A program made the position numbers and the translations under genes. From Myxococcales bacterium (GTDB lineage Bacteria > Myxococcota_A > UBA9160 > SMWR01), in NCBI GenBank assembly GCA_022561775.1, contig JADFQO010000003.1, positions 1 to 64,000 on the forward strand: 64,000 nucleotides of DNA, read 5' to 3'. Below the pieces are notes generated by a model. It was not told the origin of the DNA. It ran no database searches and saw only the letters and a list, made by a program, of their open reading frames with translations. Numbering within the stretch: position 1 is the stretch's first letter; each line of letters begins with the position of its first letter. This document shows, piece after piece, positions 52,600 through 61,548 of the stretch.

Positions 52600-52875
52600 A
52601 TGGCAAATGGCGTCAACAGAGGGGCAATGCTGCTGGCGTCTGCAGTCACCGGACTGCTGACGCTAGGAGTGCCAATCGGAACGGCCATGGCCGATCATCA
52701 TGCCGAAAACGTGCATTGCTACGGCGTGAACAAATGCAAGGGCGCGGGGGACTGCGGCGGAAAGGGCCACTCGTGCGCGGGCAAGAACGCCTGCAAGGGG
52801 CAGGGATATCTGGATATCGATAAAGAGACCTGCCTGAAAATCGCGGGCGGCAGACTCACTCCCGAAAAGAAGTAG
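52600..52875 (+). CDS. bufA: Bufferin precursor peptide (BufA2-like)
   Basis: A 91-residue exported peptide. After a signal peptide (AMLLASAVTGLLTLGVPIGTAMA) the mature part carries six Cys at 40, 46, 52, 59, 65 and 78 in the pattern HCYGVNKCKG, GDC, HSCAGKNACKGQGY and ETC, matching the BufA2 type of bufferin precursors. These peptides are modified at Cys by a DUF692 enzyme, are exported and bind copper. AAAGGAGG precedes ATG 52600. The DUF692 and DUF2063 genes follow directly, which supports the call strongly. Confidence 0.88.
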   Translation: MANGVNRGAMLLASAVTGLLTLGVPIGTAMADHHAENVHCYGVNKCKGAGDCGGKGHSCAGKNACKGQGYLDIDKETCLKIAGGRLTPEKK

Positions 52876-52885
52876 GGGTGAAGCC

Positions 52886-53767
52886 TTGAATGTGGGGCGC
52901 GCGGGTGCGGCGGCGAACTGGCCCAGGCTGGGGTTCGGCGCCGGCCTGCGCGCCGACCACTACGAAGCCGTTCTCGCGGGCTCGAAGGGGGTCGACTGGT
53001 TCGAGGCCATCACCGAGAACTACATCGACACGAAGGGCCGCCCCCTGGCTGTGCTCGAGTCCGTGCGACGGGATTATCCGATCGCGCTGCACGGCGTCGC
53101 TCTCTCGATCGGTTCCGCGGATCCGTTGGATCGGCGATACTTGAAAGCGCTCCGGGATCTGGTCGATCGAATCGAACCGGCGCTGATCAGTGATCACCTG
53201 TGTTGGAGCAGCGTCGATGGGCGCGCGCTATTTGATCTGCTGCCTCTTCCGCTGACCGAAGAGTGTCTGGTACACGTAGCGGAGCGCGTTCAGATCGTAC
53301 AGGACGCCCTGGGCCGCCGGATTCTACTCGAAAATCCCTCCACGTATCTGAGTTGGAATGCTTCGACGATTTTCGAGGCGGAGTTCCTGTCCGAATTGGC
53401 TGAGCGGGCGGACTGCGGCTTGCTGCTCGATGTGAACAACGTTCACGTGAGCGCCGTCAATCTGGGTTTCGATTCCAGGGCGTATCTCGAGGCAATTCCA
53501 GCGCACCGCGTGGCACAGATACACCTGGCGGGATTCACCGATATGGGAACGCATCTGTTCGATGCCCACAGTCGGGCGGTCTCCGATGAGGTCTGGGATC
53601 TCTATCGGTACGCGCTCGAGCGGATCGGATCGGTGGCCTCCATGGTGGAGTGGGACGACGACATTCCCCCGTGGTCGCGTCTCGTGGAGGAGGTCGATCG
53701 CGCCCGACAGATACACGCCGGGGTATTTTCCACAGGCGAGATCGGCCATGCAGCCATCGCTGGCTGA
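52886..53767 (+). CDS. bufB: DUF692 multinuclear iron oxidase, bufferin-modifying enzyme (BufB)
   Basis: A 293-residue TIM-barrel enzyme of the MbnB/BufB/TglH family, which uses a di- or tri-iron centre to convert peptide cysteines to heterocycles. Typical motifs are LGFGAGLRADHYEAVL, LHGVALSIGSADPLD, ISDHLCWSS, LLENPSTYLSW, LLLDVNNVHVSAVN, AQIHLAGFT and VEWDDDIP; the His, Glu and Asp ligands sit in these. TTG 52886 is favoured as start because of the GGGGTGAAG upstream; GTG 52892 is possible. The substrate is inferred to be the peptide encoded directly before it. Confidence 0.9.
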   Translation: MNVGRAGAAANWPRLGFGAGLRADHYEAVLAGSKGVDWFEAITENYIDTKGRPLAVLESVRRDYPIALHGVALSIGSADPLDRRYLKALRDLVDRIEPALISDHLCWSSVDGRALFDLLPLPLTEECLVHVAERVQIVQDALGRRILLENPSTYLSWNASTIFEAEFLSELAERADCGLLLDVNNVHVSAVNLGFDSRAYLEAIPAHRVAQIHLAGFTDMGTHLFDAHSRAVSDEVWDLYRYALERIGSVASMVEWDDDIPPWSRLVEEVDRARQIHAGVFSTGEIGHAAIAG

Positions 53768-54536
53768 ACTCCAGCGCGCCCTCGCAGCGCGCATCGTGGC
53801 CGGGGAAGGGCCCGATCTCGACGATTGGATTTGCGTGCCTTCCGAAGCGGACCTCGCAGCACGTGTGGCGGTCTACGTCCAGGGGTATCCCGCGCGCATC
53901 CGAGAGGCATTGCGTGAAACCTTTCTCGCGGTGGCGCACATCCTCGGCGACCGATCTTTTGCGGCGCTTGCCGACCGCTATGCGAGAGGCGTACCCGCCG
54001 ATCTCCGAAATCTCAATCTCGTCGGAGCGGCTTTTCCTGCACACCTCGAGTCGGACCGCGCGAGCGATGATTTGCCGTTCCTTCCCGCTCTCGCCGAGCT
54101 CGAGTGGGCGGTCGACCGGTGTTTCCATGCGGATCTTCTACCGGCGTTCGAACCTTCGGCCTGTAGCGGATGGTCTTGGGAAGATTGGGGGCGCGCGAAA
54201 ATCGGGTTTCAACCCGGGCTCGCGCTCGTTTGCGCCCCGTGGCCGCTGCGCGAGCTGCGCGAGACATGCCGGTGCGAGCGGTCCGAGATCGATGTGGACC
54301 TGGTCGATCGACACGACCGGGTGTTGGTTTACCGACGGGGCTTCGAAGTCGTCGTCGAGTCGATCGGGGCAGCCGAGGCCGAGGCCGCCGAATCGCTGCA
54401 AAACCGGGGCCTGCTCGGCGAAGTTACCGCGAAGCTTGCCGGTTCTGGCGCAGAGCCTGGATCCGTGGTCGGGTTCTTTGGCCGCTGGGTTTCTCTTGGG
54501 CTCGTCGTTTCTTGCGAGGCCTCTCCGTCTTCCTGA
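53748..54536 (+). CDS. bufC: DUF2063 bufferin partner protein (BufC)
   Basis: A 262-residue protein. The N-terminal DUF2063 domain (LAELQRALAARIVAG, then RVAVYVQGYPARIREALRETF and LPFLPALAELEWAVDRCFHA) is that of BufC/HvfC/MbnC-like partners, thought to present the precursor peptide to the DUF692 enzyme. The ATG is 20 bases inside the end of bufB, so the two are coupled. The C-terminal 120 residues are less conserved. No DoxX-family BufD or other export gene follows; the next gene starts 230 bases on. Confidence 0.85.
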   Translation: MQPSLAELQRALAARIVAGEGPDLDDWICVPSEADLAARVAVYVQGYPARIREALRETFLAVAHILGDRSFAALADRYARGVPADLRNLNLVGAAFPAHLESDRASDDLPFLPALAELEWAVDRCFHADLLPAFEPSACSGWSWEDWGRAKIGFQPGLALVCAPWPLRELRETCRCERSEIDVDLVDRHDRVLVYRRGFEVVVESIGAAEAEAAESLQNRGLLGEVTAKLAGSGAEPGSVVGFFGRWVSLGLVVSCEASPSS

Positions 54537-54766: not shown

Positions 54767-56398
54767 ATGACTCTCCGGGCGCATCGATATCTGGCGATCG
54801 CGAGCGTTGTTGCAGGCATACTTGCGCACCGGTCTCTAGCGTTCTGGAATCCGGACCCGCACGGACAGGTGCGCTTCCAGGACTGGTTGTTCTCGTCGGC
54901 AGACGCCATTCCCCAGATTTATTTCGCGCTTGCAGCCGCGCTCGCCTATCGGAATCGGAAGTCGTTTCGCAGCGCGATGGAGCGGGCCGGTTCGCCGGCT
55001 CTGGCACTCCTCTCGTTGTCGCTGGGCTCGGCGTTATTCGTCTGGGGTCATTACGTAGATGCCACGGATCTGCTCCTCGCATCGTTCGTGCTCGTCTCGA
55101 TGGGCGTGGCGTTGCTCTGGTTCGGGATCGGCTTCGCGGCGGCGTGGTCGATTCCGTGTGTGATCCTCGCGTTCGCGTTTCCAATCCCGGCCGCGCTGAC
55201 CAACCAGATCTTCTATTCCCTCCGACTGTGGACGGCCGATCAGGCCACCGCGCTGCTCACCCTGGTCGGGTTCCCCGTGTATCACGAGGGGAACGTGATC
55301 TACGGCGCCGATGTGGTCGCGCAGGTAATCGATAGCTGCAGCGGCTTGCGGGCGATGGAGATGCTCACTCTCGCCGCGTTCCTCTACGTGCAGTGGTCTC
55401 CCGCCGACCGCCTCCGGGGATGGTTGCTGATCGCGTTGGCGCCGCCGATCGCCTACCTGTTCAACCTGCTGCGGGTGTGTTTCCTGATCCCGGATCCGAC
55501 CTCCGATCTCTCCGCGACGCATACCGTGCAGGGCTGGCTCGCGTTCTTTGGGGCGCTCACGGTTCTGATACTCGTCGATCGCGTTCTGGGCCGTCTGCTC
55601 TCGGGGCGATCCCACAGCGATTCCGTCTCTTCACCCGTGTGCGACCATCCGCAGCCGGCAGCTGACGCGGTGGCGTTGGCGAGCTCGAGGGCGGGTGGGT
55701 GGTCGATCGCGCTCGCGGCGCTGCTCGCCATGCTATTGGGCGTGTCCCTCTGGATGCCCCAATGGAGTTCAGCGGAGACCGAGGATTCCGCGAGCGCAAC
55801 GCCGATCTTTGGGCCCGTGGTCAACCTTCCGAGCGAAATGGCTGGGTGGAGGAAGGGTAGGGCGCTCCCGCTGGACCGCGATTTTCTCTGGACGGTGCGC
55901 TTTCCCCAGTACGCAAACCGGCCCTACCGCCTGGACGGAGAGACGGTGGATCTGTTCGTCGGTTACGGCGACCGACGAGATCGCAGCAGGAGCCTGCTCT
56001 CGCCCAAAAATGCGCTTCCGGGGCGCGGATGGCAGGTCGAAGAGCGAAGTTTCGCGAGACTCGACTCTTGGGATAACCGGGTGACGCGGGTCGTGGCGCG
56101 TTCTGGACAGCGCCGCATTCTCACCTACCACTGGTACGAGGGGACCGATTCGATGGCGCTGGAAGCGCTGCGAGCGCTGTTCGCCACCGACCAGTCTCCG
56201 CGCTGGCGGAGCCAGCGACCGCGGGTGATTCGGATCGGCACTCGGGTCGGTGTGGGAGCACTCGAGGAAGCCGAGGCAGATCGGAAGCTTCGAGCGTTTG
56301 CCGGCGCGCTCGCCACGGCTCTGCGGGATGGCGAATCGAGCCCGTTGGTTACCCCGCGGGATATCGGGGTTGGGGGACGTACATCTCGGCGCGACTGA
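54767..56398 (+). CDS. Exosortase fused to an EpsI-type domain
   Basis: A 543-residue membrane protein. Residues 1 to about 280 are an exosortase/archaeosortase-type transpeptidase with about eight membrane segments and the catalytic set C191 (IDSCSGLRAMEML), R236 (LFNLLR) and H252 (THTVQGW). Residues about 325-540 are a periplasmic EpsI (DUF3485) domain (VVNLPSEMAGWRKG; VDLFVGYGDRRDRSR; LTYHWYEGTDSM). Exosortases cut PEP-CTERM tails and attach the proteins during secretion, usually with exopolysaccharide. A PEP-CTERM protein is encoded at 57366. The 230 bases before the gene hold a TATACT (54652) without a good -35. Confidence 0.92.
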   Translation: MTLRAHRYLAIASVVAGILAHRSLAFWNPDPHGQVRFQDWLFSSADAIPQIYFALAAALAYRNRKSFRSAMERAGSPALALLSLSLGSALFVWGHYVDATDLLLASFVLVSMGVALLWFGIGFAAAWSIPCVILAFAFPIPAALTNQIFYSLRLWTADQATALLTLVGFPVYHEGNVIYGADVVAQVIDSCSGLRAMEMLTLAAFLYVQWSPADRLRGWLLIALAPPIAYLFNLLRVCFLIPDPTSDLSATHTVQGWLAFFGALTVLILVDRVLGRLLSGRSHSDSVSSPVCDHPQPAADAVALASSRAGGWSIALAALLAMLLGVSLWMPQWSSAETEDSASATPIFGPVVNLPSEMAGWRKGRALPLDRDFLWTVRFPQYANRPYRLDGETVDLFVGYGDRRDRSRSLLSPKNALPGRGWQVEERSFARLDSWDNRVTRVVARSGQRRILTYHWYEGTDSMALEALRALFATDQSPRWRSQRPRVIRIGTRVGVGALEEAEADRKLRAFAGALATALRDGESSPLVTPRDIGVGGRTSRRD

Positions 56399-56409
56399 AC
56401 CCGAGTACC

Positions 56410-56428
56410 TTTTCTCTTTTTGAGAAAA
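56410..56428 (+). terminator. AT-rich hairpin after the exosortase gene
   Basis: Perfect inverted repeat TTTTCTC-TTTTT-GAGAAAA, starting 11 bases after the exosortase stop. The stem is 7 bp but weak, with ATTTT a few bases after it. It may end transcription in either direction; alternatively it is a protein-binding site. Confidence 0.35.
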
Positions 56429-56521
56429 CATTTTCCCAAAGCGGCTGGCTTCCGAATCCCATTCCAGCCTAAAAAATCTTCAGAATCAGTTAGTTGCGAT
56501 ATCTGTAGGGTCTTCCACCGT

Positions 56522-56538
56522 TTGGCACCAGTATTGCT
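56522..56538 (+). promoter_or_regulatory. Sigma-54 (-24/-12) promoter of the PEP-CTERM transcript
   Basis: TTGGCAC-CAGTA-TTGCT matches the sigma-54 consensus TGGCAC-N5-TTGCW at every key base, with GG (56524-56525) and GC (56536-56537) ten bases apart. The start point would be near 56550. In other PEP-CTERM/exosortase bacteria a sigma-54 activator (PrsR) with its kinase PrsK controls such genes, which fits the place of this site. The activator gene is not in the window. Confidence 0.7.
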
Positions 56539-56557
56539 CTTCTAGACGCTGCGGGAG

Positions 56558-56673
56558 GGAGTGGGGGAGCGAAGAACGCCATTGACATTGGCAGCGGCTG
56601 TGTGGTCTTTGGAGTTTGGAGGAGTGGGGAAGCGAAGAACGCCGTTGACATTGGCAGCGGCTTTGTGGTCTTG
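56558..56673 (+). repeat. Two-copy 53-bp direct repeat in the leader region
   Basis: Copies at 56558-56610 and 56621-56673 (period 63) share 49 of 53 bases, including GCGAAGAACGCC and TTGACATTGGCAGCGGCT. The array lies between the sigma-54 promoter and the first gene, so it would be in the untranslated leader. It could be a duplicated regulator site or RNA element; nothing more can be said. Confidence 0.8.
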
Positions 56674-56792
56674 TGGGAGAGCTGGGTTTCCGCGGCAACA
56701 GGTGCCGGTGGGCAAATCGCAGATCTGGAATCTGAGTTGTGAGTGTTTCTGAGATTCGAGTGTTTCGGAGTGTTTCGAAAAGGAGATTGGTT

Positions 56793-57272
56793 ATGAAGTT
56801 ACAGCGCATAGTCAGCTGCATCACGGGCGTCTTCTTCGCGGTCGGCTTTGCCGCGTCCCAGGCGGGTGCGGGAACGGGGCCCGAGGGGTGCGACTTCACG
56901 CTTGAGTTCAAAGCGCTTCGCGGTGGCTCGCCCACGGTGAGCGTCGGAACGAAGAACATCACCGCCAAGGCCCTAATCGCGAAGGGGACGGCTACGAGCG
57001 ATACGACGATCGACGTGTCGCTGGTGATCGAAGCCCTTGTCGGAGGAGAGGTGGTCGACAGGCAGACTAGGGGCATACCCAATGAAGATGGCGGGAGCCT
57101 GATTCGGCTCGGAGTCGGTAAAGGTGGGCACGGCGACAAGCTCGCGATGATAATTCAATCGGGCGATTGCGTCACCGGCGAACCCGTGAACTTCACCGCG
57201 ACTTTCTCTGGACCGGACAGCGGCGGCGACCTCTGCATAGTAACCAAAACGATCACAAAGACCTGCAAATAG
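56793..57272 (+). CDS. Small secreted protein of unknown function
   Basis: A 159-residue protein with a signal peptide (IVSCITGVFFAVGFAASQAGA) and four Cys in the mature part (EGCDF, SGDC, DLCIVTKT, KTCK), which could form two disulfides. The body is beta-rich (SPTVSVGTKNITAKALIAKG; TIDVSLVIEALVGGEVV). It has no PEP-CTERM tail and no family I recognise. AGGAG lies 7 bases before ATG 56793. It is the first gene behind the sigma-54 promoter, followed 93 bases later by the PEP-CTERM gene. An upstream in-frame GTG at 56739 would put the signal peptide out of place. Confidence 0.7.
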   Translation: MKLQRIVSCITGVFFAVGFAASQAGAGTGPEGCDFTLEFKALRGGSPTVSVGTKNITAKALIAKGTATSDTTIDVSLVIEALVGGEVVDRQTRGIPNEDGGSLIRLGVGKGGHGDKLAMIIQSGDCVTGEPVNFTATFSGPDSGGDLCIVTKTITKTCK

Positions 57273-57365
57273 TCGCTGAATTATTTCAGTAATTCTCTGC
57301 TGGTGTTGGCGGGTCTACCCGGGGCTCGAGACGATGGATCGGGTGGACCCGCATCCGGGGTTCCC

Positions 57366-58355
57366 ATGAATGCTGAACGGCCTGTACGCTACCCGAACGA
57401 ACCGTCAAAGCGCGCGAGATCCAAAGGACCGAGTCGGTTGCCCCGCCTCAAGTGGCTGCTGGTTGCGGTCGGTCTGTGCTGGCTGTCTTGGCCCGCCCCG
57501 GCCGAGGCGCAAACCTGCGCGCATGACATCTGCGACGAGGGAATCAACCTGGATCAGAATTGCGATCCCTGCGTTGCCGACATCTGTGCTTTCTTTCCCC
57601 ACTGCTGCCAATTCGAATGGGACTTTGAATGTGTTGCCGAGGTCCTGACGACCTGTGAGGATTGGATCTGCGCCGCCGCCTGCAGCCATAATCTCTGCGA
57701 GATCGGGGAGCCCCTCGACTCCACGTGCACCTTTTGCGCCGCGAAGGTGTGTTTTAACGATCCCAGCTGCTGTGCGGATAGCTGGGACGCGTCTTGCGTT
57801 TTCAAGGTTCAACAGGAGTGCGGCTTCCAGTGTGCACCGGGAGCCAACAGATGCTCCGAAGCGCTCCCAATCACTCCGGGTAGGATCTTCGGCACCCTCA
57901 CCGATTCGACCAACGATGGCTGCGAGACCGCGCATGTCTCCTGCCAAAGCGGGGACGTGTGGTACGAATATACGCCGGTGGTAGTCCAGGATTTTGTGCT
58001 CTCCACGTGCTCGACCCAGCGCGCGTTTGGCATCGACACCGTGATATCGGTGCACGAGGGCTGCCCCGGGAACACGGGCAACGAGATCATCTCGAACGAT
58101 GACTACCGGCAAGGATTACTAGCGACGGAGTGCGCCAATGTCGCCACTCCCAACGTCCTCGACTCCGCACTCCCGCTCGGGGGGTTCTTTCAGCTTGCTG
58201 TCGGCGAGACCGTGCTCCTCCGGGTGTCCCACCACGAAGACTCCATCAAAGGCAACTTCGAACTCAGGCTCCTGCCGGAGCCCGAGGTCTGGCTGGCGTT
58301 CGTTGCCGGAGCCGGAGCGCTGGGCGCCCTCTCGCGGCGGCGGGCTCGGCGCTAG
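57366..58355 (+). CDS. Cysteine-rich PEP-CTERM protein (exosortase substrate)
   Basis: A 329-residue exported protein. The signal peptide (WLLVAVGLCWLSWPAPAEAQ) follows a basic n-region. Two tandem Cys-rich repeats come next, each of the pattern C-x3-H-x2-C-(D/E)-x-G...C-x2-C-x4-C-x5-CC-x4-WD-x2-C. Then follows a beta-rich domain (SGDVWYEYTP; FVLSTCSTQRAFGIDTVISVHEGCPG) of the kind found in bacterial surface proteins. The C-terminus is a PEP-CTERM sorting signal: LLPEPE, a hydrophobic stretch (VWLAFVAGAGALGAL) and SRRRARR. I chose ATG 57366 since the preceding open frame is Gly/Pro-rich leader. Confidence 0.85.
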   Translation: MNAERPVRYPNEPSKRARSKGPSRLPRLKWLLVAVGLCWLSWPAPAEAQTCAHDICDEGINLDQNCDPCVADICAFFPHCCQFEWDFECVAEVLTTCEDWICAAACSHNLCEIGEPLDSTCTFCAAKVCFNDPSCCADSWDASCVFKVQQECGFQCAPGANRCSEALPITPGRIFGTLTDSTNDGCETAHVSCQSGDVWYEYTPVVVQDFVLSTCSTQRAFGIDTVISVHEGCPGNTGNEIISNDDYRQGLLATECANVATPNVLDSALPLGGFFQLAVGETVLLRVSHHEDSIKGNFELRLLPEPEVWLAFVAGAGALGALSRRRARR

Positions 58356-58377
58356 CAATTCATCTAGATTCGCTGGG

Positions 58378-61300
58378 GTGGGTTTCAAAACCTCACGCGC
58401 ACAGGTGAAGTGCGCCCGCGCTCTGGTGGTGATGGCGGCCTTCGCGCTGCTGCCGAGTTCGGCGGCTCTCGCGCAGCAGGCGACCAAATCCGCGGAAGTC
58501 GAGACGCTCGATGCCGATGTCGACCCGCTCTACCGCGAGGGCCGCTTCGACGAGGCGATTGCGCTCGCAGAGCGCGCGCTCTCGATCCAGGAAAGAACAC
58601 TCGGCCCCGAGCATCCCGGCGTAGTCAACGCGATCAATAACCTCGCCCTGCTCTACCGGGCCGCGGGTGACTACGTGGCTGCGGAAACCCTCTTTGAGCG
58701 GGTGCTCGAGATCACGACGGACACCCTCGGACCCCGGGACCCCGCGATTGCGATCACGATCAACAATCTGGGGATGCTCTATTGGGAGCAGGGTGACCAC
58801 GCGCGCGCCGCTCGGTACCTGGACAAGGCGCTCTCGATCTGGGAACGCTCCCTCGGTCCCGATCGCCCCGAAGTTGCGGTCTCTCTCAGCAACCTGGCGT
58901 CGCTGTATCGAAAGACGGGGAATTTCGAGCGAGCCGAGCCACTCTACGAAAAGGCGCTCTCGATCTGGGAGAAGAGCCCGGACGCCATTCACGACCAACT
59001 CGTCGACGTATTGCACAGTCTCGCTGCGATCCGTCAGGGCAATGGCGACTACGAACGCGCTGAATCGTTCTTGAAACGCGCACTTGCCCTCGAGGAGAAG
59101 GCTCACGGCGCCGACCACACCGAGACCGCCGTCGCGCTCAGCAATCTCGCGTCGCTCTACTACGAGTCCGGCGACTACGCTCGTGCCAGGCCTCTGTTGG
59201 AGCGGGTGCTTGCGATCATGGAAGGCGCCCGCGGCCCCGATCACCCCGATGTCGCCTCCGCGTTGAGCAATCTGGCCTCGGTCCACGCCGCGATGGGCAA
59301 ACCCGCGAGCGCAGAGCCTCTCTACGAGCGAGCGCTCGAGATTCGGTCGGAGGCCCTGGGGTCGGATCATCTCGCCGTCGCGGCATCCCTCGAAAACCTC
59401 GCCTCACTCTATCGAGCGCAGGGCGAATTCGCGCGTTCACGACCGCTCTGCGAACGCGCGCTCGTGATCCGCGTGGCGAACCACGGGCCCGAGCATCTCG
59501 ATGTCGCCAGGATCACCAGTGATCTCGGCGCGACCCACTGGGCGCTGGGTGATTTCGCGATCGCAGAGCCGCTCTTCGAGCGCGCGTTATTGATCCGAGA
59601 GAAGGCTCTCGGTCCCGAGCATCCCGCGGTCGCCACTTCCGTCGACAATCTCGCCTCGGTGTACCTGGCGCAGGGCCATCACGCGAGAGCGAAGCCCTTG
59701 TACGAAGCAGCGCTCGCAATCCGAGAGAAGGCCTTCGGGCCCGAACATCCCGCCGTCGTGCAGTCGCTTCGCAATCTGGGCTTGATGCACTGGGCAAAGG
59801 GTGATTGGGAGCAGGCCGAGAGCTACCTCGTTCGCACCGCGGAGATCGAGGAGCGGCAGATTTCACTGCTGCCTCCGGTCCAGTTCGAAGATCGGGCGCG
59901 CGCGTTCATGGAGGCGCTCTCGAATACCACGAGCCTGATTCTGTCATTCCAGAGCAAGCGGCCCGACCAGCGATCGACGACTCGCCTGGCGCTTACGACG
60001 GTCCTCCGGCGCAAGGGGCGAGAACTGAGCGTGGAGGCTGGCGAATCGGCTGTGTTCCGTCGACGCTTGGGAGATCAGGAGCGCGCGGTTTTCGACAGCC
60101 TGCTCGCGCACCGCAACGAGCTTGGGCGCCTGATCGTGCGGGGATCTGATCGGCCTCGTTCCAGATCCCTTCGAGCAAGCGTCGAGAAGTTACGACGCGA
60201 AGTGGGTGATCTCGAAAAGGCAGCCGTGAGCGGGGGAGCTGCAAGGCGGTCATGGGCCGCTCCGATTCAAATCGAGGATCTTCAGCCGAGAATTCCCGCG
60301 GACGCCGCGCTGGTCGAGCTGGTCGAGTATCAGGACTTCGATCCCACCCGGATTTCGGCTGATCGCGCTCGCGGGATCGCGCGTCTAGCGGCCTTTGTTT
60401 TGCGCTCTTCCGGAGCACCGCGATGGGTCCCGCTCGGAGAGGCAGCGGCGATCAACGCGAGCGTCGGTGCGTTTCGGGAGGTACTGGTCGACCCGGATGT
60501 TTCCCTGAAGAAGCTGCGCGAGCGAGCCCGCGACCTGTACGATCGCCTGGCAGCGCCCCTCGACCCCCACCTGGAGGGGATTCGAGTCCTGTTGGTCGCT
60601 CCCGACGGTGCGGCGGTCCTGGTTCCGTTTGGCGCATTGATCGACCCGGATGGCCGCTATTGGATCGAGCGTTACGAATTTGCCTATCTGACCAGCGGGC
60701 GCGACCTGTTGCTTCCGAACTCGGCGCTCCCTTCGCCGGGGCCGCCGCTGGTAATTGCTGCCCCCGATTACGACGCGGAGCATCCGGCGGGGAGGAGGGC
60801 GATCGGCGAGGCTCCCACGCGGCTTTTGCCGGAAATCGCAGCGCCGCATTTTTCGCCGATCGCGTTGTCTCAGACGGGCGCTTTGGATGTCGGAAGGCTG
60901 TTGGGCGTCACGCCATTGACCGGCGCGCAGGCGAGCGATGCTGCGATCAAAACGGCGCGAGCGCCCCGTGTGCTGCATATCGCGGTGGATGGTTTCTTTC
61001 TGCCGGATCAGGCCCGGGAACCAACGGTGCGCTGGGGCTCGATTCTCGGCATCGATCCGGGCTTGCGACCTCCGAACTCCGAGAACCCGCTGTTGCGCTC
61101 CGGCCTCGCGCTGGCGGGTGCAAACCGTCGGGCGAATGACGCAGACCGCGGTCTCCTGACGGCCCTGGAGATCGCCGACCTCGATCTGTGGGGAACACAG
61201 CTCGTCGCGATTGCGGTTCGCGGGATCGGATCGGAGGAAGCCGCGGTCGATCAGGCCGTCTACGCGCTCCGGCGCTCGTTGGTGATCGCCGGGGCCCAAT

Positions 61301-61548
61301 CGCAATTCATGAACCTGTGGAAGACGGACCATCGAGCTGCGATCGAATTGACGACTACCTACTACGAGCGCCTGCTAGCGGGCGAAGGCCGCTCGGAGGC
61401 GTTGCGAAGCGTTCAGCTCGCAATGCTTCGAAGTGAGAGCCGCAGTCATCCCTTCTACTGGGCGGGCTTCATCTCGATCGGCGCGCGGGGCCCGATCGCG
61501 TGGACAGATTCCCGCGAGGCCGTTCAAGAGATCTCCAGCTCGCCGTAG
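58378..61548 (+). CDS. Exported TPR protein with a catalytically dead CHAT domain
   Basis: A 1056-residue protein. The signal peptide is ARALVVMAAFALLPSSAALA. Residues 55-474 are ten kinesin-light-chain-type TPR repeats of exactly 42 residues. Residues about 700-1050 are a CHAT (caspase-like) domain with GTQLV, AGAQSQFMNLW and HPFYWAGFISIG at the expected places. The catalytic His of the THG motif is D871 (HIAVDGFF) and the catalytic Cys of SACETG is R948 (AIAVRGIG), so protease activity is not expected. The start is uncertain: GTG 58378 lies 22 bases after the PEP-CTERM gene, with GTG 58405 in frame. It is probably in the same transcript. Confidence 0.85.
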   Translation: MGFKTSRAQVKCARALVVMAAFALLPSSAALAQQATKSAEVETLDADVDPLYREGRFDEAIALAERALSIQERTLGPEHPGVVNAINNLALLYRAAGDYVAAETLFERVLEITTDTLGPRDPAIAITINNLGMLYWEQGDHARAARYLDKALSIWERSLGPDRPEVAVSLSNLASLYRKTGNFERAEPLYEKALSIWEKSPDAIHDQLVDVLHSLAAIRQGNGDYERAESFLKRALALEEKAHGADHTETAVALSNLASLYYESGDYARARPLLERVLAIMEGARGPDHPDVASALSNLASVHAAMGKPASAEPLYERALEIRSEALGSDHLAVAASLENLASLYRAQGEFARSRPLCERALVIRVANHGPEHLDVARITSDLGATHWALGDFAIAEPLFERALLIREKALGPEHPAVATSVDNLASVYLAQGHHARAKPLYEAALAIREKAFGPEHPAVVQSLRNLGLMHWAKGDWEQAESYLVRTAEIEERQISLLPPVQFEDRARAFMEALSNTTSLILSFQSKRPDQRSTTRLALTTVLRRKGRELSVEAGESAVFRRRLGDQERAVFDSLLAHRNELGRLIVRGSDRPRSRSLRASVEKLRREVGDLEKAAVSGGAARRSWAAPIQIEDLQPRIPADAALVELVEYQDFDPTRISADRARGIARLAAFVLRSSGAPRWVPLGEAAAINASVGAFREVLVDPDVSLKKLRERARDLYDRLAAPLDPHLEGIRVLLVAPDGAAVLVPFGALIDPDGRYWIERYEFAYLTSGRDLLLPNSALPSPGPPLVIAAPDYDAEHPAGRRAIGEAPTRLLPEIAAPHFSPIALSQTGALDVGRLLGVTPLTGAQASDAAIKTARAPRVLHIAVDGFFLPDQAREPTVRWGSILGIDPGLRPPNSENPLLRSGLALAGANRRANDADRGLLTALEIADLDLWGTQLVAIAVRGIGSEEAAVDQAVYALRRSLVIAGAQSQFMNLWKTDHRAAIELTTTYYERLLAGEGRSEALRSVQLAMLRSESRSHPFYWAGFISIGARGPIAWTDSREAVQEISSSP
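58540..59799 (+). repeat. Ten tandem 126-bp units coding TPR repeats
   Basis: Ten back-to-back units of exactly 126 bases (42 residues), each of the type G-D-(Y/F)-x-x-A-x-x-L-x-E-R-A-L-x-I...GPEHP.VA..L.NLA.LY. An eleventh partial unit follows (GDWEQAESY). The exact period without any indel suggests expansion by duplication or gene conversion. Confidence 0.88.

Follow-up and report, generated by a model that had tools for sequence, protein, structure and literature searches.

The locus at positions 54767-61548 of the window (the whole 64,000-nucleotide stretch that we analysed) probably encodes a stand-alone exosortase module, in which an EpsI-fused exosortase would work with exported proteins encoded downstream of it. 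Several lines of sequence evidence point to this reading: the domains and catalytic triad of the enzyme, the pairing of such enzymes with a small secreted protein across the order, a composite cis-regulatory element and its spacing classes, a domain swap at a PEP-CTERM junction, and the literature on sigma-54 control of PEP-CTERM genes. The source genome (2.72 Mb, 77% complete) belongs to an uncultured Myxococcota-like bacterium.

An EpsI-fused exosortase with exported partners

The locus comprises four co-directed genes, whose positions held as first given. Profile matches confirmed the gene set proposed by a sequence-only reading, namely an EpsI-fused exosortase (EXO) together with P2, which is small and secreted, P3, a Cys-rich protein with a PEP-CTERM tail, and P4, an exported protein of the TPR-CHAT type, and its statement that the partners of the exosortase are exported proteins only was borne out. 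EXO (54767-56398, plus strand, 543 amino acids) matched PF09721 (2.5e-35; 122.5 bits, cut-off 25.7) and DUF3485/EpsI (PF11984, 5.6e-20), and scored above the cut-offs of the EpsI and generic exosortase/archaeosortase models TIGR02914 (58.3 bits, cut-off 42.8) and TIGR04178 (50.6 bits, cut-off 23). No named Xrt type passed its model cut-off in the profile search. For XrtA (TIGR03109), EXO reached 75.7 of 208 bits and lacks the exopolysaccharide neighbourhood of that type, as none of the genes called around the locus was recognised as an exopolysaccharide gene. Cys191, N233xxR236, and H252xxxG256 of EXO were invariant in ten homologues and correspond to the Cys, NxxR, and HxxxG residues proposed to be catalytic in exosortases by Haft et al. 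(PMC1569441). By homology and with its triad intact, EXO would reside in the inner membrane, where it may cleave or re-attach PEP-CTERM tails, that of P3 at least and possibly others.

An MNIO/bufferin-like locus (window 52600-54536) adjoins the exosortase directly upstream and is conserved in the genus; it encodes a small Cys-rich exported precursor (52600-52875), an MbnB/TglH/ChrH-family enzyme (52886-53767, PF05114 2.1e-105), and a DUF2063 protein.

The genome contains four exosortase-family genes. Two besides EXO are full-length, one of them in an exopolysaccharide locus: this XrtA-like gene on contig C42 (207.7 of 208 bits for XrtA) neighbours genes for a sigma-54 response regulator, a chain-length determinant, an XrtA-system ATPase, and a tyrosine kinase. 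The other is a second EpsI fusion on C24 (L030; G000:C24:1-7185), with its own small protein of the TSP3 (thrombospondin-3) type and a VPEPG-type PEP-CTERM protein. On C6, a short XrtH-like exosortase gene (L031:7334-8318; G000:C6:126333-127317) is accompanied by a small, overlapping partner gene.

A composite sigma-54 element precedes P2, P3, and P4

The claim that P2, P3, and P4 lie behind a sigma-54 promoter was well supported. A scan of the genome gave two perfect matches, of which the -24/-12 site TTGGCACCAGTATTGCT (56522-56538, plus strand) is one. This site scored 17.2 bits (99.9% background, 14.4), and both orthologues whose sequence spans its position conserve it. Control of PEP-CTERM genes by sigma-54 has been reported (PMC1569441), and pepA is RpoN-dependent (PMC9850573). 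Of the cis-regulatory site described for PEP-CTERM genes in 2006, the window promoter has motif 2, the -24/-12 element; motif 1, 17 nt long, ends in TTTACA about 63 nt upstream, and inspection of the 110 nt upstream by eye found no TTTACA and a different palindrome. This palindrome, TTGAGAAAACATTTTCCCAA (56420-56439, no strand), is a presumed site for an enhancer-binding protein and represents the element GGAAAANNTTTTCC, which is shared upstream of sigma-54 sites at exosortase loci across the order. Between palindrome and promoter lies the box TCAGTTAGTTGCG (56486-56498, plus strand), a TCAGNNANTTAGG-like sequence 25 nt before the -24 GG; in 30 loci, the box had a mean of 11.1 of 13 matches versus 8.9 in shuffles (maximum 9.3).

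Of 15 gaps between an exosortase gene and a small-protein gene, all but three contained a sigma-54 site at, or close to, ≤5/300 shuffles. G073 and G051 were clear misses; read at a different locus, G073 does show a site. The sites lie 166-484 nt ahead of the start codon, hence the leaders are long. Reading these gaps also revealed the two further common elements, GGAAAANNTTTTCC and TCAGNNANTTAGG. We scanned 118 genomes with the strict composite pattern GAAAANNTTTTC-N60-90-GGCAYN5TTGCW and used the reversed pattern as a control. The pattern occurred 18 times and the control not at all. Exosortase loci accounted for 13 of the matches; a further 2 directly preceded PEP-CTERM genes, and the other 3 preceded TetR-type genes that are orthologues of one another. 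Because some of the matched loci had served to derive the pattern, matches at these are not independent evidence; its specificity, the lack of control matches, and the PEP-CTERM matches are independent. Within the window genome the strict element is present only at the window locus and at the C24 exosortase locus, which thus share it. The palindrome is mostly 64-68 or 85-89 bp from the GG and the box mostly 14-15 or 25 nt; these classes, two helical turns apart for the palindrome and one for the box, are as would be expected for activators bound on a fixed face of the DNA. Through the TetR-type orthologues (L333, L334, and L336, in three genomes), the regulon might be connected to a repressor.

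In the mechanism that we propose, an enhancer-binding protein at the palindrome and TCAG box would activate the sigma-54 promoter, from which P2, P3, and P4 would be transcribed as one unit. The response regulator encoded on C42 is no more than a candidate for this activator. We rejected a genome-wide sigma-54 regulon of PEP-CTERM genes: the best scores in the other PEP-CTERM upstream regions scanned were mostly at background, several of these regions being shortened by uncertain starts.

The promoter is followed by a long leader (56539-56792, plus strand), which we analysed by three-genome alignment and blastn. It includes a 52-bp direct duplication (56558-56609/56621-56672), present only in the window genome among the three compared, and a 48-nt block (56682-56729) that is almost invariant in the three genomes and more conserved than the protein encoded downstream. 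A known riboswitch was considered and rejected, with 0 Rfam matches at E≤1 and a folding energy that was not unusual. A conserved hairpin separates P2 and P3 (57309-57352, plus strand); its 11-pair stem is kept in 4 genomes, with one broken cell in the comparison.

A genus-level form of an order-wide arrangement

Three other genomes of the genus keep the orders RelA-YceI-MNIO genes-EXO-P2-P3 and P3-P4-ECH-YhhQ, pieced together across contigs, with breaks at the exosortase or at P3. P2 and P3 evolve faster than their neighbours, with identities of ~55-63% versus ~76-89% within the genus. Gene order alone says little here because the flanking RelA, YceI, MNIO, ECH, and YhhQ genes are syntenic too. 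The expectation that the four genes stay together held within the genus, where they have one order, but such clustering was not seen beyond it. P4 was seen beside an exosortase only in this genus synteny, P3 has partial matches beyond the genus, P2 was absent beyond it in a search of 287 genomes save for one marginal match, and the closest EXO orthologue outside the genus (G017, 42% identity) has no PEP-CTERM neighbour.

Across the order we found a recurrent plan, in which an EpsI-fused exosortase is followed, after a gap of ~500 bp, by a small secreted protein, usually of the TSP3 type, and often then by a PEP-CTERM gene. In 29 genomes a TSP3-type small protein is encoded 331-824 bp downstream of an EpsI-type exosortase on the same strand. 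Such a position was found for 31 of the 48 stand-alone TSP3-type matches tallied, including two second copies located further down; TSP3-type domains also occur in many larger, unrelated proteins. A PEP-CTERM gene came next in 7 of the 20 neighbourhoods examined, typically with the tail VPEPTTALLxGLGLxGL..GRR. The C24 locus of the window genome follows this plan. The window locus itself is a genus-level variant of the order-wide module: P2 fills the slot of the small protein, P3 is its PEP-CTERM protein, and P4 is an addition. Where this genus has P2, the order-wide arrangement has the TSP3-type secreted protein. The view that exosortase loci normally carry exopolysaccharide genes fits the XrtA-like locus of this genome but not the EpsI-fused exosortases of the order, which typically have a small secreted protein downstream. 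We found no published description of the module, and a full-text search that combined exosortase and thrombospondin type 3 returned no paper.

An inherited neighbourhood could produce the same picture, if the exosortase merely lies beside an unrelated sigma-54-controlled operon for surface proteins and slow rearrangement has kept the two together in the genus. The equal synteny of all flanking genes and the failure of P2 to travel with the exosortase outside the genus fit such an explanation. We nevertheless consider it unlikely, as EpsI-fused exosortases throughout the order, including the second one of this genome, have this composite promoter element downstream, and P3 carries a sorting tail. 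Counting against the module that we favour are likewise the confinement of P2 and of the P4-exosortase adjacency to the genus, the equally syntenic housekeeping genes, and the lack of a PEP-CTERM neighbour in G017.

P2 domains replace PEP-CTERM tails

P2 (56793-57272, plus strand, 159 amino acids) matched no family in profile searches. Its AF2 model (pLDDT 81) has eight strands in a predicted beta-sandwich, and a fold search gave no PDB match below E 1e-3 and only generic beta-sandwich matches, the best at E 1.5e-3. Thirteen homologues are present in the genus: 4 are exosortase-linked, 2 represent another stand-alone gene, and 7 form the C-terminal domain of a secreted family with the N-domain SATIDLIW..TTTFNSA. 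At the same junction, other members of this family carry a PEP-CTERM tail (TTTFNSAFLINVPEPG..RRS), a TSP3-type module (DTTFNSAFLVNVSEPDFDGDG..PGPSGTTAGTTACP), or a fourth domain as their C-terminal part. Hence, both types of small protein found after EpsI-fused exosortases also replace a sorting tail. The plain reading is that the P2 domain and the TSP3-type module would be alternative surface-retention modules. Since the P2 domain takes the exact place of the PEP-CTERM tail elsewhere in the genus, P2 itself is most likely a secreted beta-sandwich that serves in surface retention and works with exosortase-sorted proteins.

The N-domain family (L310, L311, L312, L118, L119, L036) is genus-specific, with about ten matches in the window genome and four interchangeable C-terminal modules. 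An apparently decayed stand-alone copy of the P2 gene (L309:4615-4920; G000:C42) lies upstream of an N-domain gene.

By inference from the swap, P2-type proteins may act as anchors, or possibly as acceptors, for sorted proteins. In the stronger form of this idea, P2 and its TSP3-type counterparts would be the acceptors (or dedicated anchors) of EpsI-fused exosortases, which would exchange the tail of a cleaved PEP-CTERM protein for the small protein by ligation, and the fusions of N-domain and P2 in the genus would reproduce the product. The fusion of both small-protein types at the exact tail position in one paralogous family, and the order-wide pairing of the TSP3 type with exosortases, speak for it. 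Fusion of neighbouring surface-protein genes could yield the same pattern, however, and TSP3-type domains are not restricted to small proteins. Nor was a nucleophile identified: we rejected the C-terminal Cys of P2 in this role, since Cys126 and Cys158 are invariant in all homologues and the other two Cys are lost together in one copy, which makes a disulfide more likely. We regard the acceptor role as very doubtful.

P3 is one of many PEP-CTERM proteins

P3 (57366-58355, plus strand) consists of two Cys-rich repeats, a further region, and a tail of the form LPEPEVW..RRRARR; its C-terminus reads LPEPEVWLAFVAGAGALGALSRRRARR. Against TIGR02595 (cut-off 16) it scored 15.0 bits by hmmscan and 18.1 in the genome search, which is borderline by model and clear by anatomy, as the tail has the PEP motif, the hydrophobic stretch, and the basic cluster of PEP-CTERM proteins; a signal peptide was recognised by eye. 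A PDB sequence search with P3 returned nothing, and its structure model (pLDDT 41) was unusable. With its tail, P3 would be the locally encoded, sorted surface protein of the module.

The sequence-only reading went further and proposed a dedicated one-substrate display system, in which EXO would act on P3 alone with P2 and P4 as helpers. The adjacency of enzyme and substrate is conserved across the genus, which is suggestive rather than decisive, and dedicated sorting systems with a neighbouring enzyme and target are known (PMC3237569). A count of PEP-CTERM proteins had been set beforehand as the check that could refute this claim. TIGR02595 had 20 matches at E≤0.05 in the genome, none in control genomes, and 13-22 in relatives of the genus; inspection by eye confirmed 21 tails, P3 included. 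The genome, at 77% completeness, thus holds ~20 other PEP-CTERM genes, a number sufficient to count against the claim, and has two other full-length exosortases. Moreover, the P3 tail (LPEPxxW..AGAGxLxxLxRRR) resembles many unlinked tails and belongs to a common class in the genome. A dedicated sorting system has a single target, and this genome does not show that pattern; we consider one-substrate display quite improbable. Sequence alone does not assign individual tails, including the ~20 others, to EXO or to another exosortase. The common type of the tail also bears on the module that we prefer, as the XrtA-like enzyme encoded on C42 could be the one that processes P3.

P4 has lost the CHAT protease dyad

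P4 (58378-61548, plus strand) starts 22 bp after P3 with a GTG codon that is kept in its orthologues, and has an apparent signal peptide, TPR repeats (TPR_12, 2.5e-130), and a CHAT domain (PF12770, 2.4e-58). The suggestion of a dead protease is supported by the sequence: the His-Cys dyad of active CHAT proteases is missing, with THG reading VDG (His to Asp) and SAC reading AVR (Cys to Arg). The dyad residues are lost in both P4 orthologues of the genus, while the closest relatives outside keep THG and SAC. A PDB sequence search with the CHAT region returned nothing. P4 may act as an exported scaffold without protease activity.

Elsewhere in the genome (C48; L042:2575-10079), a gene for an exported TPR-CHAT protein with an intact dyad overlaps a PEP-CTERM gene by 4 bp. 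The pairing of P3 and P4 is therefore not unique to the exosortase locus. The C48 pair adjoins genes for a large secreted protein and a CHASE2-like protein, both named from sequence only.

Comparison with known systems

The partner to which exosortases attach their substrates is not known to have been identified, and the locus hints at a possible identity for it. A single small partner is suggested by the order-wide pairing of an EpsI-fused exosortase with one small secreted protein behind a distinctive sigma-54 switch. Given the replacement of PEP-CTERM tails by such domains, this idea is directly testable by mass spectrometry. The composite promoter element may serve as a regulon marker for these uncultured bacteria.

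P4 shares the domain architecture of TPR-CHAT proteins (PF12770) but differs in the loss of the dyad in the genus, in being exported, and in adjoining a PEP-CTERM gene. Like pepA of Aquincola (PMC9850573), the PEP-CTERM gene of the locus has a -24/-12 promoter upstream; the promoter was mapped experimentally there and is predicted here, with a different upstream element. The rhombosortase with a single target (PMC3237569) has the near adjacency of enzyme and target gene in common with our locus, whereas the window genome has many other tails of the same broad class. XrtD, the VPLPA-CTERM exosortase (TIGR04152), is the nearest named type to EXO, as its best full-length model match and with an EpsI-type C-terminal region, but EXO reached 176 bits against a curated cut-off of 400, and its presumed substrate tail is LPEP, not VPLPA. 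With the XrtA-type PEP-CTERM/exosortase (EpsH) system (Haft et al. 2006, PMC1569441) the locus shares the Cys, NxxR, and HxxxG residues, a PEP-CTERM substrate, and sigma-54 control of substrate genes. It differs in lacking recognised exopolysaccharide genes, PrsK/PrsR, and PrsT, and in the fusion of EpsI to the enzyme, although such fusions were already noted in 2006 (PMC1569441). Its upstream element is a GGAAAA/TTTTCC palindrome instead of the 17-nt motif ending in TTTACA, and several genes of the window locus probably form one operon, preceded by a long leader.
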